Shown here: piece by piece, positions 571 through 13,444 of the stretch
Layout of the letters: each line of letters starts with the position of its first letter
Position numbering within the stretch: position 1 is the stretch's first letter
Source of the DNA: an uncultured Lachnospiraceae bacterium
GTDB taxonomy: Bacteria; Bacillota; Clostridia; Lachnospirales; Lachnospiraceae
DNA: 13,444 bases
Assembly (NCBI GenBank): GCA_949935685.1
Contig: CATLGN010000020.1
Coordinates: forward strand, 1-13,444
Direction: 5' to 3'
The notes under the pieces: model-generated
Told to the model about the DNA's origin: nothing
Databases searched by the model: none
Seen by the model: only the letters and a program-made list of their open reading frames with translations
Position numbers and translations under genes: made by a program

Positions 571-2025
571 ATGAAATTATCAACATCACTGGAATACAAT
601 AAAAAACAGGCCTGCGAACGCTTTCCGCTCGGAAAGAGTTTTGACCTGATTACACGGGATCTGTATCTTGGCAATACCGCCGCGTGGTTCCTGGGCGTCA
701 ACGGCATGTGCCGGACAGAAGTGCTGCAGGAAATCTTCTCCGATCTGCCAAATCCTGCTTATATGAAAGACAGTACGATCGAGGATATTTCCCGGGATAT
801 GGCCTCCAAAATCGGCTATGCCCAGACCGAGCTGACGGACGACTGGGATACGATCGTTTCCGCCGTGTTAAGCGGCCCCTGCGTCCTGCTTGTGGACGGT
901 TTCGCGCAAGCGATCCTGCTCGATACCCGCACTTACCCGGCCAGAAGCATCTCCGAGCCGGAGACAGAGCGGGTGACAATGGGCGCACGTGACGGTTTCG
1001 TGGAAACCATGCTTTTCAACGCCAATCTGATTCGGCGCCGTATCCGCAATCCCCGCCTGACATTCGCCGTGCGGTCCGTGGGAAGCGACAGCCGCACCGA
1101 TGTGGCCATCGCCTATATCGACGGCTATGTCGATGAGGCGCTGCTCCGAAAAATCGACGAAAGTCTGCTTGCCGTCCGGGCAACTTCCCTGACGATGGGC
1201 GCCAAAAGTCTGGAAGAACTGCTTGTCCCCAAACGCTGGTATCATCCTCTGCCCAGCATCCAGCAGACGCAGCGTCCCGACGTGGCCTGTAGCTATCTGA
1301 CGGAGGGAAATATCCTGCTCCTCGTGGATAATTCTCCCTCCGCCCTGATTCTGCCGAGTACGATCTTTCAGTTTACCCAGAGCCCGGAAGACTATTACAA
1401 AAGCCCCGTGGTCGGCAGTTACAGCCGTCTGCTTCGTTTTTGCTGCATCTTTATCAGCCTGCTTTTGCTGCCTGTGTTTCTGCTGCTCGGCTCGTATTTT
1501 CCCGCTGTCGCGGACACGCTCTCTCTCTTTCCCGTCGAACAGCTCAGCAGCGGCAGACTGCTTTTATACACCTTGTTTGCCGAGCTGGCGCTCGACCTGT
1601 TCCAGTATTCCGCCGCCCACAGCCCCTCCTCGTATTCCGGCGCCCTTTCCATCGTCGGCGGCCTGATTCTCAGCGACGCCGCCATCGATCTGCACTGGGT
1701 TTCGCTGGAGGTAATGTTTTATGCGGCGGCCACCATGCTGGCCTCGCTGGCGCTTTCCAGCACCGCCTTTTCGGAAGGGCTGCGCTGCTATCGGATTTTC
1801 CTGCTCCTTGTCACCGGTATGTTCGGCCTGTGGGGGTTTCTGTGCGGCTGTGCGCTCGTCTTTCTTTCCATTTTGACAACGCCCTCCTTCGCGGGAAAAA
1901 GCTTTTTCTGGCCGCTGTTTCCCTTCAACCGGAAAGCGCTTTCCACATTGTTTTTCCGAAAGCCCACCTATATGGCGCAGCCCGGCAATGTGTGGAAACG
2001 GGAACGCCAAAAACACGATCACTGA
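571..2025 (+). CDS. GerA-family spore germination protein (GerAA/SpoVAF type)
   Basis: A 484-residue integral membrane protein of the GerA family, the A-subunit of nutrient germination receptors in the spore inner membrane, or its SpoVAF relative. A soluble N-terminal domain (about 1-285) carries the family signature TERVTMGARDGF followed by NANLIRRRIRNP (residues 132-161). The C-terminal half has hydrophobic segments near 287-308, 330-345, 357-396 and 408-437, including GALSIVGGLILSDAAI (357-372), typical of GerA proteins. The opening SFDLITRDLYLGNTAAWFLG (23-42) reads more like SpoVAF than GerAA. No GerB or GerC subunit gene follows, which also favours a SpoVAF-like or orphan subunit. The ATG at 571 has GGGAAGG 13 nt upstream, a rather long spacing. 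The 3' end overlaps the convergent pdaA-like gene by 7 bp, so there is no room for a terminator between them. Confidence 0.9.
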   Translation: MKLSTSLEYNKKQACERFPLGKSFDLITRDLYLGNTAAWFLGVNGMCRTEVLQEIFSDLPNPAYMKDSTIEDISRDMASKIGYAQTELTDDWDTIVSAVLSGPCVLLVDGFAQAILLDTRTYPARSISEPETERVTMGARDGFVETMLFNANLIRRRIRNPRLTFAVRSVGSDSRTDVAIAYIDGYVDEALLRKIDESLLAVRATSLTMGAKSLEELLVPKRWYHPLPSIQQTQRPDVACSYLTEGNILLLVDNSPSALILPSTIFQFTQSPEDYYKSPVVGSYSRLLRFCCIFISLLLLPVFLLLGSYFPAVADTLSLFPVEQLSSGRLLLYTLFAELALDLFQYSAAHSPSSYSGALSIVGGLILSDAAIDLHWVSLEVMFYAAATMLASLALSSTAFSEGLRCYRIFLLLVTGMFGLWGFLCGCALVFLSILTTPSFAGKSFFWPLFPFNRKALSTLFFRKPTYMAQPGNVWKRERQKHDH

Positions 2026-2819
2026 ATCTCACCGAGCGGCCGGATGCGGTAGCCCATCTTTTCCCATTCGGTCAGCAGTTCATCCAATATCTGTCCGTTC
2101 GTCGCGGAAGTACTATGTAAGAGCACAATGGCGCCGGGATGGATCCTGCCGAGCAGCTTTTCAAAAGCCTCCTCCTTCGTGGGCTGGTCGTCTTCCAGCC
2201 AGTCTACATAGGCCAGGCTCCAGAAAAACGTCTGATAGCCCATGGCTTTTGCATGTTTCAGCGTTTCCATGCTGTATTTTCCCTGCGGCGGCCGGTAAAA
2301 TTTCGCCAGTTCCCCGCCGGTGATCTCTTTATATTTTTCTTCCAGCAGCCGGATCTCCTGTTCAAACTCCGCCTCTGATTTCACCGTCATATCGGGATGA
2401 TGGTAAGAATGGTTTCCCACCGTATGCCCTTCCGCTGCCATCCGCTTTACCAGTTCCGGGCTTGTTTCCAGATAATTGCCAACGACAAAAAAAGTGGCCG
2501 ACACCTGATGCTTTTTCAGCGCGTCCAGTATGGCCGGTGTATTTCCGTTTTCAAATCCCGCGTCAAAGGTGAGATAGATCACCTTCTCCTGTGTGCCGCC
2601 CACATACCAGGCGTCATACGCCGCCAGTTCTTCGGCTCCGGTATTGCCCGTCGGCTTCTGCCCGCTCTCTCCGAACCCAAGCCCCCAGTCCTTTGACTCA
2701 TGCGCTATGGCGGAAGTCTCCTTCCACACATTCACGCCCCCTGCCAGACCGGCCCCGATCATATACATCATCACAAACAACAGACCGACCCGGGCCAGAA
2801 CCTTATATTCGTTTACCAT
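2019..2819 (-). CDS. pdaA: PdaA-type polysaccharide deacetylase (delta-lactam cortex de-N-acetylase)
   Basis: A 266-residue NodB-fold (carbohydrate esterase family 4) deacetylase. PdaA removes the acetyl group from N-acetylmuramic acid so that muramic delta-lactam can form in spore cortex. Visible elements are an N-terminal hydrophobic anchor or signal (about 8-28), WGLGF (45-49), the catalytic TFDAGFENG (84-92), the metal-binding NHSYHHP (136-142, H137 and H141), RPPQG (176-180), FWSLAYVDW (199-207) and IVLLHS (231-236, H235). The TFDxGxENG form, the WG(L/F) motif and the FWSL.(F/Y).DW motif are typical of PdaA rather than general deacetylases. The start at 2819 has AAGGCG close upstream. 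It lies 58 nt after the dehydrogenase gene on the same strand, so it could be read from the glycan operon. A TATACT (2860-2855) lies in the gap but lacks a good -35. Its role in the spore is established for the family, not tested here. Confidence 0.93.
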   Translation of the reverse strand: MVNEYKVLARVGLLFVMMYMIGAGLAGGVNVWKETSAIAHESKDWGLGFGESGQKPTGNTGAEELAAYDAWYVGGTQEKVIYLTFDAGFENGNTPAILDALKKHQVSATFFVVGNYLETSPELVKRMAAEGHTVGNHSYHHPDMTVKSEAEFEQEIRLLEEKYKEITGGELAKFYRPPQGKYSMETLKHAKAMGYQTFFWSLAYVDWLEDDQPTKEEAFEKLLGRIHPGAIVLLHSTSATNGQILDELLTEWEKMGYRIRPLGEIQ

Positions 2820-5342: not shown

Positions 5343-8300
5343 TTACAGCAAATCCGTCATGTCCGTCATCCTGTTAAAAAACGGGTCCTCAACTTTCAGA
5401 TGCAAAAATGTCTGATCGGAAACGGTTATCCCGTGAATCAGGGAAAGCAGCGTCTCGTCCAGCTCCTGATCTGTTTTTCTCGCTTCCGGCGGGCAGAGTT
5501 TCAGATAGATCCGAAAATAATCCAGAATGCCCGCCTGCGCGGAGAGAACACATTGTATCTCTTCTCCGCTCCTCGTCTCTTCCCCGTAGACAGCGGCGCC
5601 GTCCGCCGCAAATCCGATTACGGAAGGCTCCGGCGACGTCAATATCGTTTCCAGAATATAATAATCCTCAAATATCCGGCCCCCGCCGCCTTCTTCCAGC
5701 CGGTAAAACGGTACGATGTCCAGCCCGCTTCCGCGCATAGATGCCGCTTCCAGCTGCAGAAAATAAAATCCTTTCAGGTGATTCGCAAACAGCCGGGACA
5801 GAAACATCTGGCTCGTCCCTTTGGCCACGAAATCAAAGAAGGCAATATCCCCTTCCCGTATGCCAAGCTGCCCGATATATGCCGCATAAGCCTTTCTGCT
5901 CTCCGACGCCCGCTCCAGTATTTCCTGTGCATAGTCTGACAGACATGTTTTCCCGCTGTCTTCGGCGTCTGCAGTCACGCCGAAACGCTTTACAAGCTGT
6001 TCCTGCAGGCTGCCGCTGAATTTCATCTTTTCAACATAGCGAATGTCTTCCACATTTCTCATGCCCGCGCGGATTGCCGCCGTGCGGGAAGTGAGAAAAT
6101 AAACGGAAACCATATCCCGGTCCCGTGCCAGCATGTCATGCATCTTCTGCATCAGATAACCGTCTCTGGCACAGAACAAAATATTCCGTATTCCCTGCTC
6201 TCTTATCTGTCTGTCAAACCAGAGCGCAAAATCGCCCAGCAGCGGTGCAAAAAAGAGCCATCCTATATCATACGCATGCGCAGCCGCAATCTTTTTCCCG
6301 TCTTCTTCAAACTGAAACGGACTGTTAAAGAGTACCGACACAAACATGCCGATGCGAATCCGGTTTGCGAGCGGTTCCATAAAATCCCAGAGCCCCATAT
6401 AACCGGCCATTTCCAGCAGGTCAATCCCACTGTGAAGCCGGCATGCCTGCAGACCGTTTGCTCTTGCCTGTTCCATATCCGCGGTCAGATCATCCCCGAT
6501 ATGGACACATGACTTTTCTCCCGTTATCTCTTTCAACTTTGAAAACAGATATTGTGTCTTGCCCGTACCGTACTCACAGGAAACCAGAATATCCGTATAG
6601 CCTTCGATCCCGCATCTCTCCAGCAGCCCTGTAATCTGTTCTTTCGTATAATACGAATCCGTGACAAGGTAGATTTCTTTCCCCTGCCCGCGTAACTGCG
6701 GCAGCAGTTCACAGACTTCCTTCCGGGGAACGACCAGCGAACGGTCAATCTCCCATTCCAGCCGGACCGTCGCCGCCACGTCCAGCGCCGCAATGCCATA
6801 CGTCTCTTTCATCCAGGTATATATGGCGGTCAGCGTGGGCGCCCGGTCCTTCGACAATTCTTTCTCCGCCGCCAGACGTTTCCCGGCAAACTGTTCGATA
6901 ACCACACCCCGTTCCCGCAGCCGTTCGTCAACCAGTTCGAACACATCGGACGGAAAAAGCGTCCGGCGCATCAGCAGCGTGTCGAACAGGTCAAAACTTA
7001 TGACGTCGCATGCCGCCATCGTCCGCAGCAGAGCCCCCTTTGTCATGCCCGCCTGCCGGTCAAACGTGTAGACGGGCCGCTTTTCCCGGCAGAGATTGTT
7101 TCCGCGCATATCATATAGAGCAATCTGCCGCTGCACGCAGATTTTCCCAATCCTTTTGGCAATCGCCCGGCAGGAACCCGGCCGCGCGGCCACAATGATG
7201 AGCTTTACCTGCTGCACCGCAACCGCAAACGGAATGACCGGCATCCCGTATAATGTCCCTTCTTCCCGGTATCCGTCCAGGAGGCCGACAATCTGAAATT
7301 CGTTTTTCCAGGCGCGCAGAAGCTTCTCCGTCTCCGCACCCAGACCGTATATGGCAATTTTCCCGTTCTGAAATCTGCGAAATACTTCCGGCACGGGTCT
7401 GCGTATGAAATCCTGCAGCGCATCCGCAAACCGTTCCATGGAAAAATAAGTCTCATAGACCGCTCTTGCTTCCCGTCCCATCCGCCGCAGGCCGTCCGGG
7501 TTTCCGATTCCCCATGCGATCTGCTCTGCCAGTCTTTGGCTGTCCTCACTCGGAAACACAAGCCCGCCTGCGCCGTTTTGAATATAATCCGCCGTACCCG
7601 CGGCGTCGGATATGATACAGGGAACCCGATGCATCATCGCCTCCGCCGCCACCGTCGGCATGGGATCTTCCCGGGAAGGGCAAATCAGCGCGTCCGCCTG
7701 TTCCAAAAGCGTATGTACGGCCGGCCGGTCCAGCGTGCCGGTCATAATCACCTGCGGCAGATCCGCCGCCGTCTTTTCCAGCTCCCGTGCCATCCGGGAA
7801 GAGCGTTCTCCCACCAGATAAAATACGGCCTGCTGCCGCAGCGCCTCCGGCAGGCGCCGAATTGCCTGCAACAGGATGTCCTGCCCTTTGCGCGTTTCGA
7901 TATATCCGATCGTCACAAAGCAGATTTTCCGGTTTGCATCCCGCTCCTCCGCTTCGGCCTTTTCCGCCGCCTCGTCCCCTACACCATAGAGAAGCGTGCC
8001 CACCGGAAAATCGGGCAGAAACGAACGAATTGCCCTGCGCGGGACCGGCCCTACCGATACGATTTCCAGATTTTCCGTATCCATCCCGCACAAAAGCGCC
8101 CGGTCTGCGCCCTCATAAAAAAACGCGGCGTCATGGAGCCACCAGAGTACCGGAATGGCCGTATTGCGGCGGGATAAAAAGACATGATAATTGACCGTAT
8201 TGCACACGATCCGGGAAAAATTCCGAATCCATTCGATGTCGTCCATAACCGCCACCTGCAGATTCCCATCCACAACAACCGGAATGCCCGACCGCAGCAG

Positions 8301-8792
8301 CCGCTCCCGCAGCGGCCCGTCGATCATGGAGGCGAATACGACCGGGAATCCCTGCGCTGTCAGCGTCTCGGCCATATGATACAGAGCGAGCGAAGGCCCG
8401 CCCAGATTCATGTCGTGCGAGAGCAGCAATATCCGGTTTTCCGCTCCGTCCCCGTCCCGGACGACACTCTCGGCGCCGCCGTAAAACAGCGCCGGTATCT
8501 TCCGCTCTTTCACATCAATCAGCCGGTGCAAGTCATAAAAATGAAATATCCGGTTTTCGGAAACGCCCAGTTCCCGTAGCTGCTTTTTCATCTCCTTCAC
8601 ATAAAAGCTGAGAATCACAACCGCGTCAAACGATTGTTTCACACCCTCCGCCGGAGATAAGACCGGAATGCCGTCGATCTCCGTATTTTGTTTTTCCGGC
8701 GCATTGTCAAGCAGCGCCCGCACCCTTTCCCGGTCAAACCATTTCTTATACCGTTCGTAATAGTCGCCGGTTCCAAAAAGAAGAAATTTCAT
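5343..8792 (-). CDS. Multidomain protein: Rossmann-like, GT4 glycosyltransferase, Rossmann-like, HAD, second HAD-like region
   Basis: A 1149-residue modular protein without a signal peptide. Residues 1-95 are a Rossmann-like module (KFLLFGTGDYYERYKK). Residues about 118-465 are a GT4-type glycosyltransferase: the GGPSLALYH acceptor-side loop (131-139), GYIETRKGQD at the start of the second lobe (296-305), and the donor motif SREDPMPTVAAEAM (373-386). Residues 477-565 hold a second Rossmann-like module (KIAIYGLGAETEKLLRAW). A HAD phosphatase-like domain follows (595-790) with SFDLFDTLL (599-607), VTDSYYTK (710-717), GKTQ (744-747) and HIGDDLTAD (764-772). The C-terminus (about 810-1149), with ILFCARDGYLM (871-881) and AFFDFVAKGTSQ (984-995), resembles the tail of COG5610-type HAD proteins from glycan clusters. 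HAD motif I has Phe at the +2 position where phosphatases usually have the acid/base Asp, so phosphatase activity is uncertain. The neighbouring stop lies 1 nt upstream of the ATG. Confidence 0.85.
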   Translation of the reverse strand: MKFLLFGTGDYYERYKKWFDRERVRALLDNAPEKQNTEIDGIPVLSPAEGVKQSFDAVVILSFYVKEMKKQLRELGVSENRIFHFYDLHRLIDVKERKIPALFYGGAESVVRDGDGAENRILLLSHDMNLGGPSLALYHMAETLTAQGFPVVFASMIDGPLRERLLRSGIPVVVDGNLQVAVMDDIEWIRNFSRIVCNTVNYHVFLSRRNTAIPVLWWLHDAAFFYEGADRALLCGMDTENLEIVSVGPVPRRAIRSFLPDFPVGTLLYGVGDEAAEKAEAEERDANRKICFVTIGYIETRKGQDILLQAIRRLPEALRQQAVFYLVGERSSRMARELEKTAADLPQVIMTGTLDRPAVHTLLEQADALICPSREDPMPTVAAEAMMHRVPCIISDAAGTADYIQNGAGGLVFPSEDSQRLAEQIAWGIGNPDGLRRMGREARAVYETYFSMERFADALQDFIRRPVPEVFRRFQNGKIAIYGLGAETEKLLRAWKNEFQIVGLLDGYREEGTLYGMPVIPFAVAVQQVKLIIVAARPGSCRAIAKRIGKICVQRQIALYDMRGNNLCREKRPVYTFDRQAGMTKGALLRTMAACDVISFDLFDTLLMRRTLFPSDVFELVDERLRERGVVIEQFAGKRLAAEKELSKDRAPTLTAIYTWMKETYGIAALDVAATVRLEWEIDRSLVVPRKEVCELLPQLRGQGKEIYLVTDSYYTKEQITGLLERCGIEGYTDILVSCEYGTGKTQYLFSKLKEITGEKSCVHIGDDLTADMEQARANGLQACRLHSGIDLLEMAGYMGLWDFMEPLANRIRIGMFVSVLFNSPFQFEEDGKKIAAAHAYDIGWLFFAPLLGDFALWFDRQIREQGIRNILFCARDGYLMQKMHDMLARDRDMVSVYFLTSRTAAIRAGMRNVEDIRYVEKMKFSGSLQEQLVKRFGVTADAEDSGKTCLSDYAQEILERASESRKAYAAYIGQLGIREGDIAFFDFVAKGTSQMFLSRLFANHLKGFYFLQLEAASMRGSGLDIVPFYRLEEGGGGRIFEDYYILETILTSPEPSVIGFAADGAAVYGEETRSGEEIQCVLSAQAGILDYFRIYLKLCPPEARKTDQELDETLLSLIHGITVSDQTFLHLKVEDPFFNRMTDMTDLL

Positions 8793-8793
8793 A

Positions 8794-10347
8794 TTATCCC
8801 CGCATCATCGTATCCAGTATCGCTTCCAGACTGTAAATTTTCCCCTGATAGTTCCGCCGCAGCATCCGTTCGATGCCGGCCGCATCATACGCCGTAATCA
8901 CAATCGCATCCACCGCCGGGAAATTCTCTTCCGGCCGGTAGATCGCAAAGTCACTGCCGAACTGTCCCACATACCGGTCAATCCCAAAGGCCGCAGGCCG
9001 CCCCTCCCGCGCAAGGCTGAGCAGCAGATGTTTCCCCAGAGACGCCATTCCGTATATGGCCACGCTGCCGACCTCCTCCGCCTCCAAAAAATCCGAAAAA
9101 CGGATCTTCTGTTCCTGCTCCAGAAACAGCCAGGTATCCACCGTCTGAAACAGCCGTTTGAACTTCCGCGCCTCATCGGCAAGCTCTGTCATCTCCCGCC
9201 GCGCATCCGCCGCAAACCGTGTGCAGGCTGCGTCCGGCACAAACGCCGGCGCCGCGGCAGCGTCCGCAGCGGCATCCCGGACGGCCTCCAGATACCCGTA
9301 TCCGTCCGTTTCATCCGGCTCCAGATACATACCCTCGCCCCATTCGTTCCAAGCGTTGAGAAACAGGTAGCCGTTTCCACAGTCCGCGCTTTTGCGAATC
9401 AGTTTTGCCAGGTTTTCCCGGAATATCTGCGGCGACGCACCCGTCAGGCATTCCCCGCTCCGTCCCCTGCGCGGGGTATCGTCATACCCGGAAATGCCGC
9501 AGAAATAAGTCCGGCACCCCGGCAGTGGCTCCGAAGCCAGCGCCGCATCCCAAGCGTCCCGATAGGCAAAGCATCGGACACCGTTTCGGATTTCCGCCTT
9601 CCCGGCCCGGTTCATCCGGTTAAAGCTGCTGCGCGGTTCATAGATCAGCGCCGCGTCCAGACAATCGTTCGGCGCCTGCATCCGCGCCCCGATCAGATAC
9701 AGCCCCGGCAGCCCCGCCTGCCGTGCCAGCGCGCGCCAGCATGCCGTCATCTCCCGCAGCGGCCCTATATCGTCGGGACTGTAAAAGACAAATACCGGTT
9801 TCCCCGCTTCTTTTATGTACCTGTCATCCGCAAAGAACGGCAGCAGATAGGCAAAATGCCGCTCCCAGTCGGCGCGGCCGCCATACGCCTGCTCCGCCAG
9901 CACCCCGCCCGGCGCATCCGCGCCGCCCGCCTCATACTTCTCCGCCCAGACATTGCCGCTGATGCGGCTCCACGAACGAATCCAGGGCTCGCTCGCCCAG
10001 TTAAAACAAAACGGCATGTCGATGTCTTTCCAGCGCAGCAAATTCTCCGCCGGCAGTTCCAGCTCTTTTTTTCCGTCCTTAAAATAATAGTGATAAAAGC
10101 AAAAACCGTCGATCCCGTGCGCGGCGGCAAGCGCCGCCTGCCGCTGCATCGTCTCTTTTTTGCTCAAATCATAATAGACGCCGCCGGCCGGTACCCGCGG
10201 CTCATTGTGGCCGGGGAAATACGGCTCGGCCGTTTTCACGGAAACCCAGTCCGTAAAGCCTTCTCCCCACCAGGCATTGTTATCTTCGTTTTCATAAAAC
10301 TGCGGCAGATAAATCGCCAAAATCTTCGGCAGCTTCCCTGTTTTCAT
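8794..10347 (-). CDS. WbsX-family glycan-cluster protein (GH99-like fold) with C-terminal Rossmann-like module
   Basis: A 517-residue protein. Residues 1-365 match the WbsX (Glyco_tran_WbsX) family: AIYLPQFYENEDNNAWWGEG (11-30), GFTDWVSV (30-37), GIDGFCFYHYYF (78-89), FCFNWASEPW (113-122) and FLNAWNEWGEGMYLEPD (329-345). Such proteins are common in O-antigen and capsule clusters and resemble the GH99 glycoside hydrolase fold; older annotation calls them glycosyltransferases and the activity is unsettled. A linker (366-426) leads to a Rossmann-like module (427-511) with SVAIYGMASLGKHLLLSLA and AVDAIVITA, closely matching the C-terminus of the PIG-L protein upstream. The start ATG overlaps the stop of the methyltransferase gene as ATGA, indicating translational coupling. 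GC content is very high here (44 of 60 bases at 9241-9300). Confidence 0.85.
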   Translation of the reverse strand: MKTGKLPKILAIYLPQFYENEDNNAWWGEGFTDWVSVKTAEPYFPGHNEPRVPAGGVYYDLSKKETMQRQAALAAAHGIDGFCFYHYYFKDGKKELELPAENLLRWKDIDMPFCFNWASEPWIRSWSRISGNVWAEKYEAGGADAPGGVLAEQAYGGRADWERHFAYLLPFFADDRYIKEAGKPVFVFYSPDDIGPLREMTACWRALARQAGLPGLYLIGARMQAPNDCLDAALIYEPRSSFNRMNRAGKAEIRNGVRCFAYRDAWDAALASEPLPGCRTYFCGISGYDDTPRRGRSGECLTGASPQIFRENLAKLIRKSADCGNGYLFLNAWNEWGEGMYLEPDETDGYGYLEAVRDAAADAAAAPAFVPDAACTRFAADARREMTELADEARKFKRLFQTVDTWLFLEQEQKIRFSDFLEAEEVGSVAIYGMASLGKHLLLSLAREGRPAAFGIDRYVGQFGSDFAIYRPEENFPAVDAIVITAYDAAGIERMLRRNYQGKIYSLEAILDTMMRG

Positions 10348-11447
10348 ATCTTTTCCACCACTGCATATACAATCAACGGATAATATTTGTCATTTGCTTC
10401 AAAATCCTTTTCCTGCAAGTCCTCACGGCACAGTCCGACGATATGCGCCGTTACCGTCTTTACATTGCCATAGCTGCCGACGGCCGCCAGGCGAAGCGAA
10501 GGTTCCTCCGCAAACATCCAGCGAAAAGCGTCCATATTAAAGTTAAACCGGCAGCCGTAATCATCCATACAGCGGATGGAATTCTGGGAAAGACCGGAGC
10601 AGGTGATCAGAGCGCTGCCGCCCTTTTTCAGGAGGCGGCCGATACTGTGCGCCGCGGCTCTCAGATCAGACAGATACATCAATGTCTGCGTCAGAATAAA
10701 GCAGTCCGCGATCCCGTCCCGAATGCCCGCGCCGGTTTCCAGATTCCCGTTAAACGTTATGCCGTCGCCTGTACTGCCGACATCCATGACAAGGGAACGG
10801 CCGACCCGTTCTGCGCCAAACGCTCTCGTATAGGTATTGTCCTCGATTTCCAGGACATCACCGCATATGCGGTCCCGGTATTGCTCTAAAAAACGCGCGA
10901 TATAATACCGGTCCACCGGCGTCCCGCGCTCTGTCCCGAACTGCCGGCTGACCGGCTCCGTGTCCATTTCCGCCACCGCCCGGATTATGGCATACCGCTC
11001 CGTGTATGCCTGCCGCAGAAACGCCCGCCATCCGTCTTCATCAGCGATGCGGACTGTCCGGCCGTCCCGGCAGACACATAAAAAGCAGTCCTTATGAAAC
11101 ACGATCTTCTCCAGACATCCGGCAAGCGCTTCTTCGTTTTCAAAAAACGGCTCCTGCGCAAACGGAAATACGAGCCGTTTCGGGTCAACCCCCGCCCCGC
11201 ACAACTGCTTCCACATACTGACAAAATGAACGGACATCAGAAAGATTTCCGTCGTATCCTCCGTATCGACCGCCGCCGGATTCATCACCGGTATGTCCGT
11301 ATCCCGATACCGGTACGGCGCATCTGCCGCCGCACGGTTATCAAGAAATCCGGCAATATGATACCGGCTCTGTATCGCCTCTTGCTTGTGTTCGAAATAT
11401 TTTCCCGTACCGAATACAATAATGTCTCTCATATGCCGCTCTCCCAT
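10344..11447 (-). CDS. N-terminal Rossmann-like module fused to a methyltransferase-like domain
   Basis: A 367-residue protein. Residues 6-100 form a Rossmann-like module (IIVFGTGKYFEHK, GFLDN, DIPVMNP, MWKQLCGAGVDPKR) that aligns by eye with the N-terminus of the 1149-residue protein. Residues about 165-367 resemble class I SAM-dependent methyltransferases from surface-glycan clusters: RGTPVDRYYI (174-183), GDVLEIEDNTYTRAFG (196-211) in place of the usual glycine-rich motif I, and LMYLSDLRAAAHSIGRLLKK (256-275) before GGSALIT. The loss of GxGxG means SAM binding is not assured. The start is either ATG 11447, which overlaps the upstream stop as TGATG and has GGAAGGAG about 10 nt upstream, or ATG 11432, which begins at the Rossmann strand and has GGGAG 8 nt upstream. 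The longer form is given. The 3' end overlaps the WbsX gene by 4 nt. Confidence 0.75.
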   Translation of the reverse strand: MGERHMRDIIVFGTGKYFEHKQEAIQSRYHIAGFLDNRAAADAPYRYRDTDIPVMNPAAVDTEDTTEIFLMSVHFVSMWKQLCGAGVDPKRLVFPFAQEPFFENEEALAGCLEKIVFHKDCFLCVCRDGRTVRIADEDGWRAFLRQAYTERYAIIRAVAEMDTEPVSRQFGTERGTPVDRYYIARFLEQYRDRICGDVLEIEDNTYTRAFGAERVGRSLVMDVGSTGDGITFNGNLETGAGIRDGIADCFILTQTLMYLSDLRAAAHSIGRLLKKGGSALITCSGLSQNSIRCMDDYGCRFNFNMDAFRWMFAEEPSLRLAAVGSYGNVKTVTAHIVGLCREDLQEKDFEANDKYYPLIVYAVVEKI

Positions 11448-12499
11448 CAGACTTTCTCTCCTTCCAGAAGCGTCCGCAGGGAAATGATATTGGCAAATCC
11501 CATCCCCTGCAGTTCCCGCCTGATCTCATCAAAATAATAAACCGCTGTCACCACGACCGCGTCCACAGCGGGAAGCCCTTCCCGCGGCGCATAGACAGGC
11601 AGTTCCGCCCGGCCGGTATCGACCGCTTTTTTATCCAGTACATATGCCGCCCGTACCGGGCTGCCGGCAAGTTCCAGACAGAGCAGCCGGCCCAGTTCCG
11701 CATACCCGTATACCGCGACCAGACGGTGCCCGCGCATCATAAGCGTCTGCGCCAGACTGCCGCCCGCGATCTTCCTGCGCATCCACCGTGTCAATACCTG
11801 ATAAAAGAGAATCTGCTTTTGCAGACGGCTCTGCAGTTCCGCCTCCTGCACGGAATCGCTGTCCGTCTCCGTTTCCACGCGGGTATACGCTTCGGCAAAA
11901 CGCCCGCACAGACGGTTTTGCAATGCTCTGTACTCCGCCATGCAAACCGCATACCGGTCATACGGCAGCGATGTGAGCTGCGATTGGTGAAAACGAATCA
12001 TCTGCCGCTTTTTCTCCATCCGGTCCGTTATATCCAGCAGGTGCGTCGGGCACTGCAAAGGCGCATGCACCTCATACAGATACAGCTCGCTGCCCGGCGC
12101 CCCCTGCTTTTGCAATGCCTGCCGCACACTCCTGTACGCGGCCGTGTGATCAGGATGATCGTCGTGCATGCCGGTGACAAAAATTTTCGTATAATCCGCA
12201 AGCCCGATCTGTTCCAGACAATCGGTATGCTGCAGCAGCGTGCCGTCTTCATAGCCGAGCATCTGATAGTCCGTCACGCCGAGAAAGCGCATTTCCTCCT
12301 GAAATTCCTGTTCCCGGACTGCCTTCACCCGCTCCGGCGCCGCGTCCCCCTGCCCTTCCCTGCCGTCGGTTAAAACGAGCACCCGGCACTGCCCGGGATA
12401 ACGGGCAAGCAGACCGCCCGGCCCGATACACTCATCGTCCGGGTGAGGCGCGATAATCAAAATATGGTCGTTTTCTTTGATGTCAAGTGTCTGCAGCAT
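11447..12499 (-). CDS. PIG-L/LmbE-family N-deacetylase with C-terminal Rossmann-like module
   Basis: A 350-residue protein. Residues 1-200 are a PIG-L (LmbE) zinc-dependent deacetylase: APHPDDE (17-23, with H19 and D22 as probable zinc ligands and D21 as probable base) and GMHDDHPDHTAAY (110-122, third ligand H115 or H118). The family removes acetyl groups from N-acetylglucosamine-type substrates, here presumably a glycan intermediate in the cytoplasm; no signal peptide is seen. Residues 205-258 form a charged, probably helical linker. Residues 259-346 are a Rossmann-like module, LVAVYGYAELGRLLCLELA then AVDAVVVTA and IISLRTLLEG, paralogous to the end of the WbsX-family protein. The ATG has AGGAGG only about 4 nt upstream, and this site overlaps the TAG of the previous gene. 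Deacetylase identity is firm; the substrate is not known. Confidence 0.9.
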   Translation of the reverse strand: MLQTLDIKENDHILIIAPHPDDECIGPGGLLARYPGQCRVLVLTDGREGQGDAAPERVKAVREQEFQEEMRFLGVTDYQMLGYEDGTLLQHTDCLEQIGLADYTKIFVTGMHDDHPDHTAAYRSVRQALQKQGAPGSELYLYEVHAPLQCPTHLLDITDRMEKKRQMIRFHQSQLTSLPYDRYAVCMAEYRALQNRLCGRFAEAYTRVETETDSDSVQEAELQSRLQKQILFYQVLTRWMRRKIAGGSLAQTLMMRGHRLVAVYGYAELGRLLCLELAGSPVRAAYVLDKKAVDTGRAELPVYAPREGLPAVDAVVVTAVYYFDEIRRELQGMGFANIISLRTLLEGEKV

Positions 12500-12506
12500 A
12501 TGCCTC

Positions 12507-13439
12507 CTACAACTTTCTGATCCAGATATTAGCGCCGGCTACAAAGTGGTCAAACAGATTCCTTCTGCGCATCTCCTCATTCCACATATCGTTAAAAAAG
12601 AGCATCTCATAGGCATTGTTATGCATTAGAAAGGCCCGCAGCAGATAACTTTCATTCCAAATCCAGCCGTTCTTCAGCCATTCCAGCGGATATTCAAAAT
12701 CAGCGGTAATATCATGAAAATGAATGCAAACGCCCGGATTCAATGCCGGCAGAATTTCGAAAAAAATGCGGTTGACATCCGAACCCCGTTTTGCCAGGTG
12801 CGAAGAGTCAACAAACAAAATGTCACCCGCCTCCAACTGCTCAAATATGGCCAAATCCACTTCCTGCAGGCCGCATTCCTCCAAATGGATATGATCGCTT
12901 TCCTTTAACAGCCTCCGCAGTCTCGCGGGATACGGCTCTATAAACGTCAGTTCCATCTTATGGCCACAATAATATTCATTGGTATCCAGCATAACGGCAG
13001 AAGAAAATCCAGAGCCGATCTCTATAATGCGGGAAGGCTGCAGCAGGCGAATCATTCCGTGCAGTACAAATGCATCCGCAATTCCATAAGTGGTATTATC
13101 CTCATAAAATCTTGGCCTGACATCCGGCCCCAGCTGTGCGGGCAGCTGCGCATGAATGTGCAGCAGCGATTCGAATATCGCCTTTTGTTTCTCCATTTGA
13201 AAATCTATATCCCGAATAACCGGGCGGCTGTCTCTTTCCGATTTAATGCAATATGAAATATCGGGAAAAGGACTGTTGAAATTCCCCATCTCTTCGATTC
13301 TGTCATATCCATAATATTCACAGTCCAGATAACTCAGGCGATACAGCAGATCAATCGTCTCTGTCGGATAAACATTCTCATATCTGGCAGACAACTCCCC
13401 ATACAATTCTTTGCTGTCCGAAACACTGACCAGCAGCAT
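12507..13439 (-). CDS. Class I SAM-dependent methyltransferase (Methyltransf_24-like), possibly incomplete at its 5' end
   Basis: A 310-residue reading frame. The methyltransferase core covers about 108-250: YGIADAFVL (118-126), motif I RIIEIGSGFSSAVMLD (137-152), FIEPYP at the ribose-binding acidic end (166-171), GDILFVDSSH (205-214) and IHFHDI (239-244). This pattern fits Methyltransf_24-type enzymes found in glycan clusters. The acceptor is unknown. The ATG at 13439 is only 5 nt from the window end and the frame stays open beyond it, with no ribosome binding site visible, so the true start may lie outside. Base composition is AT-richer than the rest of the operon (sampled lines give 24/60 and 28/60 G+C). 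The stop lies 7 nt before the PIG-L gene, whose ribosome binding site overlaps it. Confidence 0.85.
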   Translation of the reverse strand: MLLVSVSDSKELYGELSARYENVYPTETIDLLYRLSYLDCEYYGYDRIEEMGNFNSPFPDISYCIKSERDSRPVIRDIDFQMEKQKAIFESLLHIHAQLPAQLGPDVRPRFYEDNTTYGIADAFVLHGMIRLLQPSRIIEIGSGFSSAVMLDTNEYYCGHKMELTFIEPYPARLRRLLKESDHIHLEECGLQEVDLAIFEQLEAGDILFVDSSHLAKRGSDVNRIFFEILPALNPGVCIHFHDITADFEYPLEWLKNGWIWNESYLLRAFLMHNNAYEMLFFNDMWNEEMRRRNLFDHFVAGANIWIRKL

Positions 13440-13444
13440 CGTAT

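Follow-up and report, generated by a model that had tools for sequence, protein, structure and literature searches.

A Rossmann-like module recurs five times on four consecutive glycan enzymes in the window analysed here, the whole 13,444-nucleotide stretch of contig CATLGN010000020.1 from an uncultured Lachnospiraceae bacterium. On the minus strand, from 13444 to 2878, the window carries a surface-glycan cluster of this gut bacterium, with eight genes running from Methyltransf_24 through a zinc-dependent dehydrogenase. The analysis supports a shared Rossmann-like module that can be transferred between enzymes and is apparently non-catalytic. We propose, with a probability of about 0.47, that it acts as a transferable assembly domain, possibly gated by a nucleotide, with a small membrane protein as hub; the pairing of modules is here something we infer. 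The five modules lie where a sequence-only reading of the same DNA had placed them, and they are listed below together with two segments that precede them.

8508..8792, minus strand: M1, N-type, residues 1-95 of the 1149-residue GT4-HAD fusion protein (motifs, iterated profiles)
7086..7382, minus strand: M2, residues 471-569 of the fusion protein (N-terminal on the HAD gene in relatives; AlphaFold2 (AF2) model)
11148..11432, minus strand: M3, N-type, residues 6-100 of the methyltransferase-like protein (motifs, iterated profiles)
8815..9075, minus strand: M4, C-type, residues 425-511 of the WbsX protein (motifs, iterated profiles)
9076..9195, minus strand: segment preceding M4, residues 385-424 (K and W common to M5 proteins and free-standing proteins)
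11465..11728, minus strand: M5, C-type, residues 258-345 of the PIG-L protein (motifs, iterated profiles, AF2 model)
11729..11842, minus strand: helical segment preceding M5, residues 220-257 (AF2 helices, model residues 2-25 and 30-36)

On sequence comparison the modules group as two close pairs, M1/M3 and M4/M5, with M2 as a diverged fifth. Every motif and coordinate of the sequence-only reading is present in the translations. M1 and M3 carry FGTGDYYE and FGTGKYFE, LDN, IPVLSPA and IPVMNPA, and MKKQLRELGV and MWKQLCGAGV, respectively; M4 and M5 carry VAIYGMASLG and VAVYGYAELG, PAVDAIVITA and PAVDAVVVTA, and IYSLEAIL and IISLRTLL; and M2 carries KIAIYGLGAETEKLL at 7098-7364. Most aligned homologues of the M3 protein start at its residue 6. 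Identity is 38% across 92 residues between M4 and M5 (BLAST E 1.4e-8) and 30% between M1 and M3 (E 3.6e-5), and HHalign gives these pairs probabilities of 99.3 and 98.5. An all-against-all comparison with HHalign bore out the kinship within pairs and in three of the eight cross-class combinations, which scored above the zinc-dehydrogenase Rossmann control of both partners (M1-M5 77, M2-M5 54, M1-M2 43), but not in the remaining five (M1-M4 22, M2-M4 18, M2-M3 8, M3-M5 3, M3-M4 0.2; control values M4 60, M5 45, M2 9, M1 3, M3 0.5).

Because direct cross-class alignment is mixed, the link between the classes rests mainly on iterated profiles, and it is further backed by fold matches common to both. 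Profiles seeded separately by M3 and M5 and run against the related loci (inclusion at E<=1e-3, six rounds, with 4 and 1 entries still being added at the stop; E-values of these hidden Markov model runs set for 100,000 sequences) gathered 104 and 106 rows, of which 104 are common, including three that duplicate others as loci L014 and L016 overlap. All five window modules are in both final sets, which are nearly the same from either seed. Among 2,460 decoys made by reversing or shuffling, none was found at E<=10; with two separately seeded profiles converging on nearly one set, chance similarity is rejected. Indiscriminate pickup of Rossmann domains is countered by the failure of the profiles to gather any of the six TarJ-like dehydrogenase open reading frames (ORFs) in the searched set, yet only three of the eight HHalign cross-class pairs beat the dehydrogenase control. 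Whole-genome searches also return ORFs of about 220 and 620-700 residues, which are presumably Rex and FlaA1-type relatives, names suggested in part by profile matches.

The module consists of beta-alpha units; its loop reads G-x-G/A, and strand 2 is followed by an acidic residue. Structure models cover the C-type and M2 segments and are confident (predicted local distance difference test, pLDDT, of 93.0 for M5 and 90.6 for M2). The modelled modules match 2g6t, 3nkl, WbaP (8t53) and Rex; M2 matches 3nkl, 2g6t, WbaP, and GDP-perosamine and other PglD-type acetyltransferases, and the N-type profile matches 3nkl, 2g6t, Rex and VioB. Their fold is that of the N-terminal domain (C2185-like_N) of 2g6t, a structure that we take to be protein C2185, and the module thereby falls into the same fold group as C2185-like_N, PglD_N and the cytosolic domain of unknown function (DUF) of WbaP. 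In PDB profile searches, neither the full-length profiles A1 and A2 nor the M2 profile returned a clear relative. The pocket is well conserved among the 104 rows, with the first glycine in 103, G, A or S at the second position in about 98%, and the strand-2 aspartate in 96% (an acidic residue in about 97%). The third glycine of GxGxxG is kept in 93% of the 40 C-type rows and is often Y or F in the N-type.

Loci encoding a relative of the methyltransferase-like protein were retrieved, twelve in all; nine of them, each of about 21 kb, hold the cluster. Pfam scans of the loci place the module in such clusters on enzymes of 22 families and many folds: GT4, GT2, GT-D, TOD1/MUCI70, Glyco_transf_56, RgpF, DUF5672, WbsX, PIG-L, Methyltransf_11, TylF, Methyltransf_24, FkbM (Methyltransf_21), HAD, WcbI, radical SAM, TupA ATP-grasp, aldo-keto reductase/thiamine pyrophosphate (TPP) protein (one count), sulfatase, DUF1919, CTP_transf_like and NKWYS. 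These families are partly related, four of the 22 being methyltransferases. GT4 proteins bear the module at either terminus. Within the nine loci, between 6 of 19 (L008) and 12 of 17 (L009) listed ORFs are module-bearing, and a different cluster, L042, has it on 11 of 18. The N-type matches listed in nine genomes to which these loci belong number at least 8, 29, 41, 19, 9, 9, 10, 4 and 25, and the window's own genome, 69% complete, holds at least 23 copies, spread over contigs C20, C44, C57, C172, C87 and C161. Some match at E<=1e-3 is found in 60 of 100 genomes of the family, often a single one in an ORF of about 220 or 620-700 residues; several-copy clusters are a minority. Across the phylum 32 of 199 genomes have matches at E<=1e-4, and multi-copy clusters also occur outside the family (L043, L044). 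The sequence-only reading had suggested that the module is a transferable part and not a catalytic one, and its N-terminal and C-terminal copies on many different enzymes, together with its lone copies, support this.

The lone copies include proteins of about 160 residues in which the C-type module is preceded by a short hydrophobic N-terminus and one further segment; the hydrophobic stretch is probably a membrane anchor. We counted 17 of these in nine genomes; to be counted, an ORF had to be shorter than 200 residues, its match had to begin no later than position 12 of 158, and the match had to cover half or more of the hydrophobic part. All except one (G303:C14) lie among N-type modules or no more than a few kb away from them, on contigs where three or more N-type matches are listed. 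Among the matches listed, 12 of 20 multi-module contigs have a free-standing membrane-type copy. Three belong to the window's genome: one on C44, a weakly hydrophobic one on C57, and one on C172 that is truncated by the contig end. In the phylum sample a clear copy was seen outside the family in G285, 1 of 198 other genomes. A G-x-x-x-G motif occurs in all 13 hydrophobic cores compared, where shuffling gave a mean of 6.1 and 0 of 20,000 shuffles reached 13, in a set chosen for its hydrophobic start and made up of related sequences that are not independent. Ahead of the module, a lysine and a tryptophan (K9, W20) are the same in all 29 rows drawn from WbsX, PIG-L and free-standing proteins, in a segment that is helical in the AF2 model of M5. 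No Pfam model scored above its cut-off in six free-standing proteins, nor did any NCBIfam model in four. An anchor was not seen in the free-standing L011_5512, L015_1441 (truncated by the contig end) and L012_1549, nor by eye in L042_15616; the modules at L012 1549-1881 and L042 15616-15942 are about 110 residues long and do not evidently start with a hydrophobic stretch.

The 1149-residue protein corresponds to two adjacent genes, M1 with GT4 and M2 with HAD, in L002, L006, L007, L009, L010 and L012, and M2 is therefore an N-terminal module made internal by fusion. This two-gene state rules out internal insertion as a third mode for M2. The sequence-only reading had the module moving between N-terminal, internal and C-terminal positions; the N-terminal and C-terminal placements stand, joined by stand-alone copies, but the internal position of M2 is a product of gene fusion. 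At least four fusions of 1146-1161 residues are present among the 120 listed of 171 proteins found with the M2 region (P0001, the window's own, P0057, P0073 and P0083 being the GT4-HAD fusions listed). A 239-residue protein at L006 2456-3175 consists essentially of one N-type and one C-type module. At L003 834-2945, a single ORF joins the end of a PIG-L C-type module to the start of a methyltransferase N-type module, a fusion that is less sure, and may be an assembly error, because the PIG-L start lies in another frame of this draft genome. Taken together, the natural fusions support closeness of the partner enzymes. Elsewhere in the window's genome, at L041 4161-6539, a 792-residue protein has an internal module ahead of a cytidylyltransferase-like domain.

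In the assembly that we propose, modules would pair with one another and with the small membrane-anchored copies of many of the same clusters. Such pairing would gather soluble glycosyltransferases, methyltransferases, deacetylases and phosphatases at the inner face of the membrane, the site of lipid-linked glycan building. It may depend on a nucleotide such as cytidine mono- or diphosphate (CMP/CDP) or uridine monophosphate (UMP), because the nucleotide-type pocket is retained. What the analysis itself shows is homology, the fold of the C-type and M2 modules, a wide range of partners, clustering, natural fusions and lone copies that start with a hydrophobic stretch; we infer the module pairing, the cytosolic orientation and the ligand. 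Related domains offer a precedent. In one study most contacts of the WbaP dimer lie in its DUF, a domain also implicated in binding uridine nucleotides or sensing UMP (PMC10942596), and in models of the EpsZ dimer the response regulator EpsW promotes contact between the two DUFs (PMC12802240). We hold only tentatively a more far-reaching version, in which the module would be a bacterial pathway-wide docking tag, carried by fusion onto about 20 enzyme families of surface-glycan clusters; a small membrane protein of the same module, crossing the membrane once, would seed a nucleotide-gated assembly, amounting to a genetically encoded glycan metabolon.

Several observations weigh against assembly. 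Among the matches listed, the anchor copy is missing from 8 of 20 multi-module contigs, and the charge pattern does not decide the topology of the free-standing protein. Modules of one cluster show no consistent extra likeness to each other (8 of 10 family pairs not significant); recent copying of modules within a cluster is likewise unsupported, the small excess being confined to M1-M4 and M3-M5 (two of ten pairs) and possibly compositional. Finally, in the C-type and M2 segments that were modelled, no dimer hairpin of the WbaP type follows the final strand of the core. In two published reports, this C-terminal beta-hairpin provides the domain-swapped dimerisation of the WbaP DUF (PMC10942596, PMC12802240), and large transferases without it are also reported (PMC12802240).

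The main rival is that each module is a nucleotide sensor, which on binding the nucleotide or nucleotide sugar shared by all modules (CMP/CDP-pentitol, or UMP or uridine diphosphate (UDP)) tunes its own enzyme with no joining of enzymes; we consider this rather unlikely. It would account for the retention of the pocket G and D in nearly all of the 104 rows and for the fold matches to NADH-sensing Rex and the WbaP DUF, and the adjoining RPE, IspD-like and zinc-dehydrogenase genes suggest a CDP-pentitol pathway. For the isolated WbaP DUF, the study PMC10942596 names UMP, UDP and uridine triphosphate (UTP) as candidate stabilising ligands, and it gives inhibition of WbaP by UMP with an apparent half-maximal inhibitory concentration (IC50) of 4.1 uM, both in line with sensing. 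Replacement of the third glycine by Y or F in many N-type copies fits it poorly, and sensing alone leaves unexplained the membrane-anchored free copies, the protein made only of two modules, and the K and W common to WbsX, PIG-L and free-standing proteins. The existence of membrane-anchored free copies and natural fusions tilts us towards docking.

It is improbable, in our view, that the module is a private oligomerisation or stability domain that homodimerises its own enzyme only, with no cross-talk between enzymes, as the homodimers of the WbaP DUF (PMC10942596) and the eight of ten family pairs without significant within-cluster module likeness might suggest. Such a role does not explain why the same domain sits on many enzyme families per cluster, or why free-standing copies are kept in the clusters. 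Least probable is a substrate-holding domain that binds the nucleotide part of the attached catalytic domain's substrate, as the N-terminal domain of PglD does: it is favoured by the profile match to VioB and by the fold matches to acetyltransferases of the PglD type, the GDP-perosamine one among them, but there are free-standing copies with no catalytic domain, partners that are glycosyltransferases come with donor sites of their own, and for PIG-L, WbsX and HAD types we know of no nucleotide-sugar use.

The genes of the cluster, as assigned by Pfam, are as follows.

12507..13444, minus strand: Methyltransf_24 gene, truncated at the contig end
11447..12499, minus strand: PIG-L deacetylase gene with M5 (E 9e-20)
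10344..11447, minus strand: methyltransferase-like gene with M3 (Methyltransf_11, 20.3 bits, slightly below the cut-off of 21.2)
8794..10347, minus strand: WbsX gene (PF14307) with M4 (E 6e-106)
5343..8792, minus strand: fusion gene of M1, GT4 glycosyltransferase, M2 and HAD hydrolase, 1149 residues
2878-5304, minus strand: RPE (ribulose-phosphate 3-epimerase family), IspD-type cytidylyltransferase and zinc-dependent dehydrogenase genes, consecutive

The PIG-L and methyltransferase-like ORFs overlap by one base. The last three genes suggest a CDP-pentitol pathway of the CDP-ribitol type, a reading for which we assume TarI/TarJ-like chemistry; size-matched genes follow the HAD gene in L002, L006, L007 and L009, and Pfam was used to check two of them in L002. 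Residues 1-309 of the Methyltransf_24 product (P0005) align to 74-378 of L005_2142_3281, which has an N-terminal module at residues 16-89, and a sixth module has therefore probably been lost at the contig end. WbsX is named a glycosyltransferase in Pfam; it may be glycosidase-like, because its best PDB profile match, a weak one (E 0.066), is an endo-alpha-mannosidase. A Stealth-type phosphotransferase with no listed module adjoins the PIG-L gene at L009 7939-8937, and a 332-residue ORF occupies its position in L002, L004, L010 and L012. Past the downstream end of the cluster lie a GerA spore germination protein (571-2025, plus strand) and a polysaccharide deacetylase (2019-2819, minus strand).

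How soluble glycosyltransferases and tailoring enzymes reach a membrane-bound intermediate is a long-standing question for capsules and exopolysaccharides. If the module is a plug, the question becomes directly testable, the tag by itself would be enough to pick out the enzymes belonging to a pathway, and synthetic glycan assembly lines would gain a natural building block. If it is instead a sensor, the whole pathway would have a shared control input. The module is also a lead for cluster proteins without a recognised catalytic domain.

Among known families, C2185-like_N (2g6t, Clostridium acetobutylicum) is close in fold, but the name covers one partner and neither the cluster-wide module nor the membrane-anchored copy. 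M1-M5 are not listed by its model (PF22674) at E<=1; sister copies score 28.5 (L009_5580), 57.2 (L014_862) and 27.0 bits (L015_1441) against a cut-off of 27, and the newer PF22674.3, precomputed in the protein database, lists P0001. The kinship to the PglD N-terminus raised by the sequence-only reading is supported by the VioB profile match, the structural matches to PglD-type acetyltransferases and weak Pfam matches of sister copies: PglD_N (PF17836) has no match in the window proteins and scores 23.8 (L005_2142) and 29.0 bits (L015_1441) elsewhere, against a cut-off of 23.4. PglD_N is normally fused to a single type of enzyme, a left-handed beta-helix acyltransferase, whereas the window partners are GT4, HAD, WbsX, methyltransferase and PIG-L, with no acyltransferase. 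Rex has a DNA-binding domain beside its Rossmann domain, and Pfam found no domain of that type in the window proteins. CoA_binding_3, the WbaP DUF (PF13727), is not listed for them either; its model spans 175 positions against about 90 in the module, and in WbaP the DUF is tied to an enzyme with its own transmembrane bundle and the beta-hairpin makes the dimer. PF13727 proteins are present in all 18 genomes searched; in the window's genome they sit on contigs C41, C104 and C209 and not on C20, which speaks against a WbaP-type transferase in the cluster as the membrane hub. The N-terminal part of an FkbM methyltransferase (2py6) is a related system for which the literature searched describes no cluster-wide role. 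The fold group is already known; searches of the open-licence literature turned up no account of it serving as a tag across a whole cluster, with a free copy anchored in the membrane.

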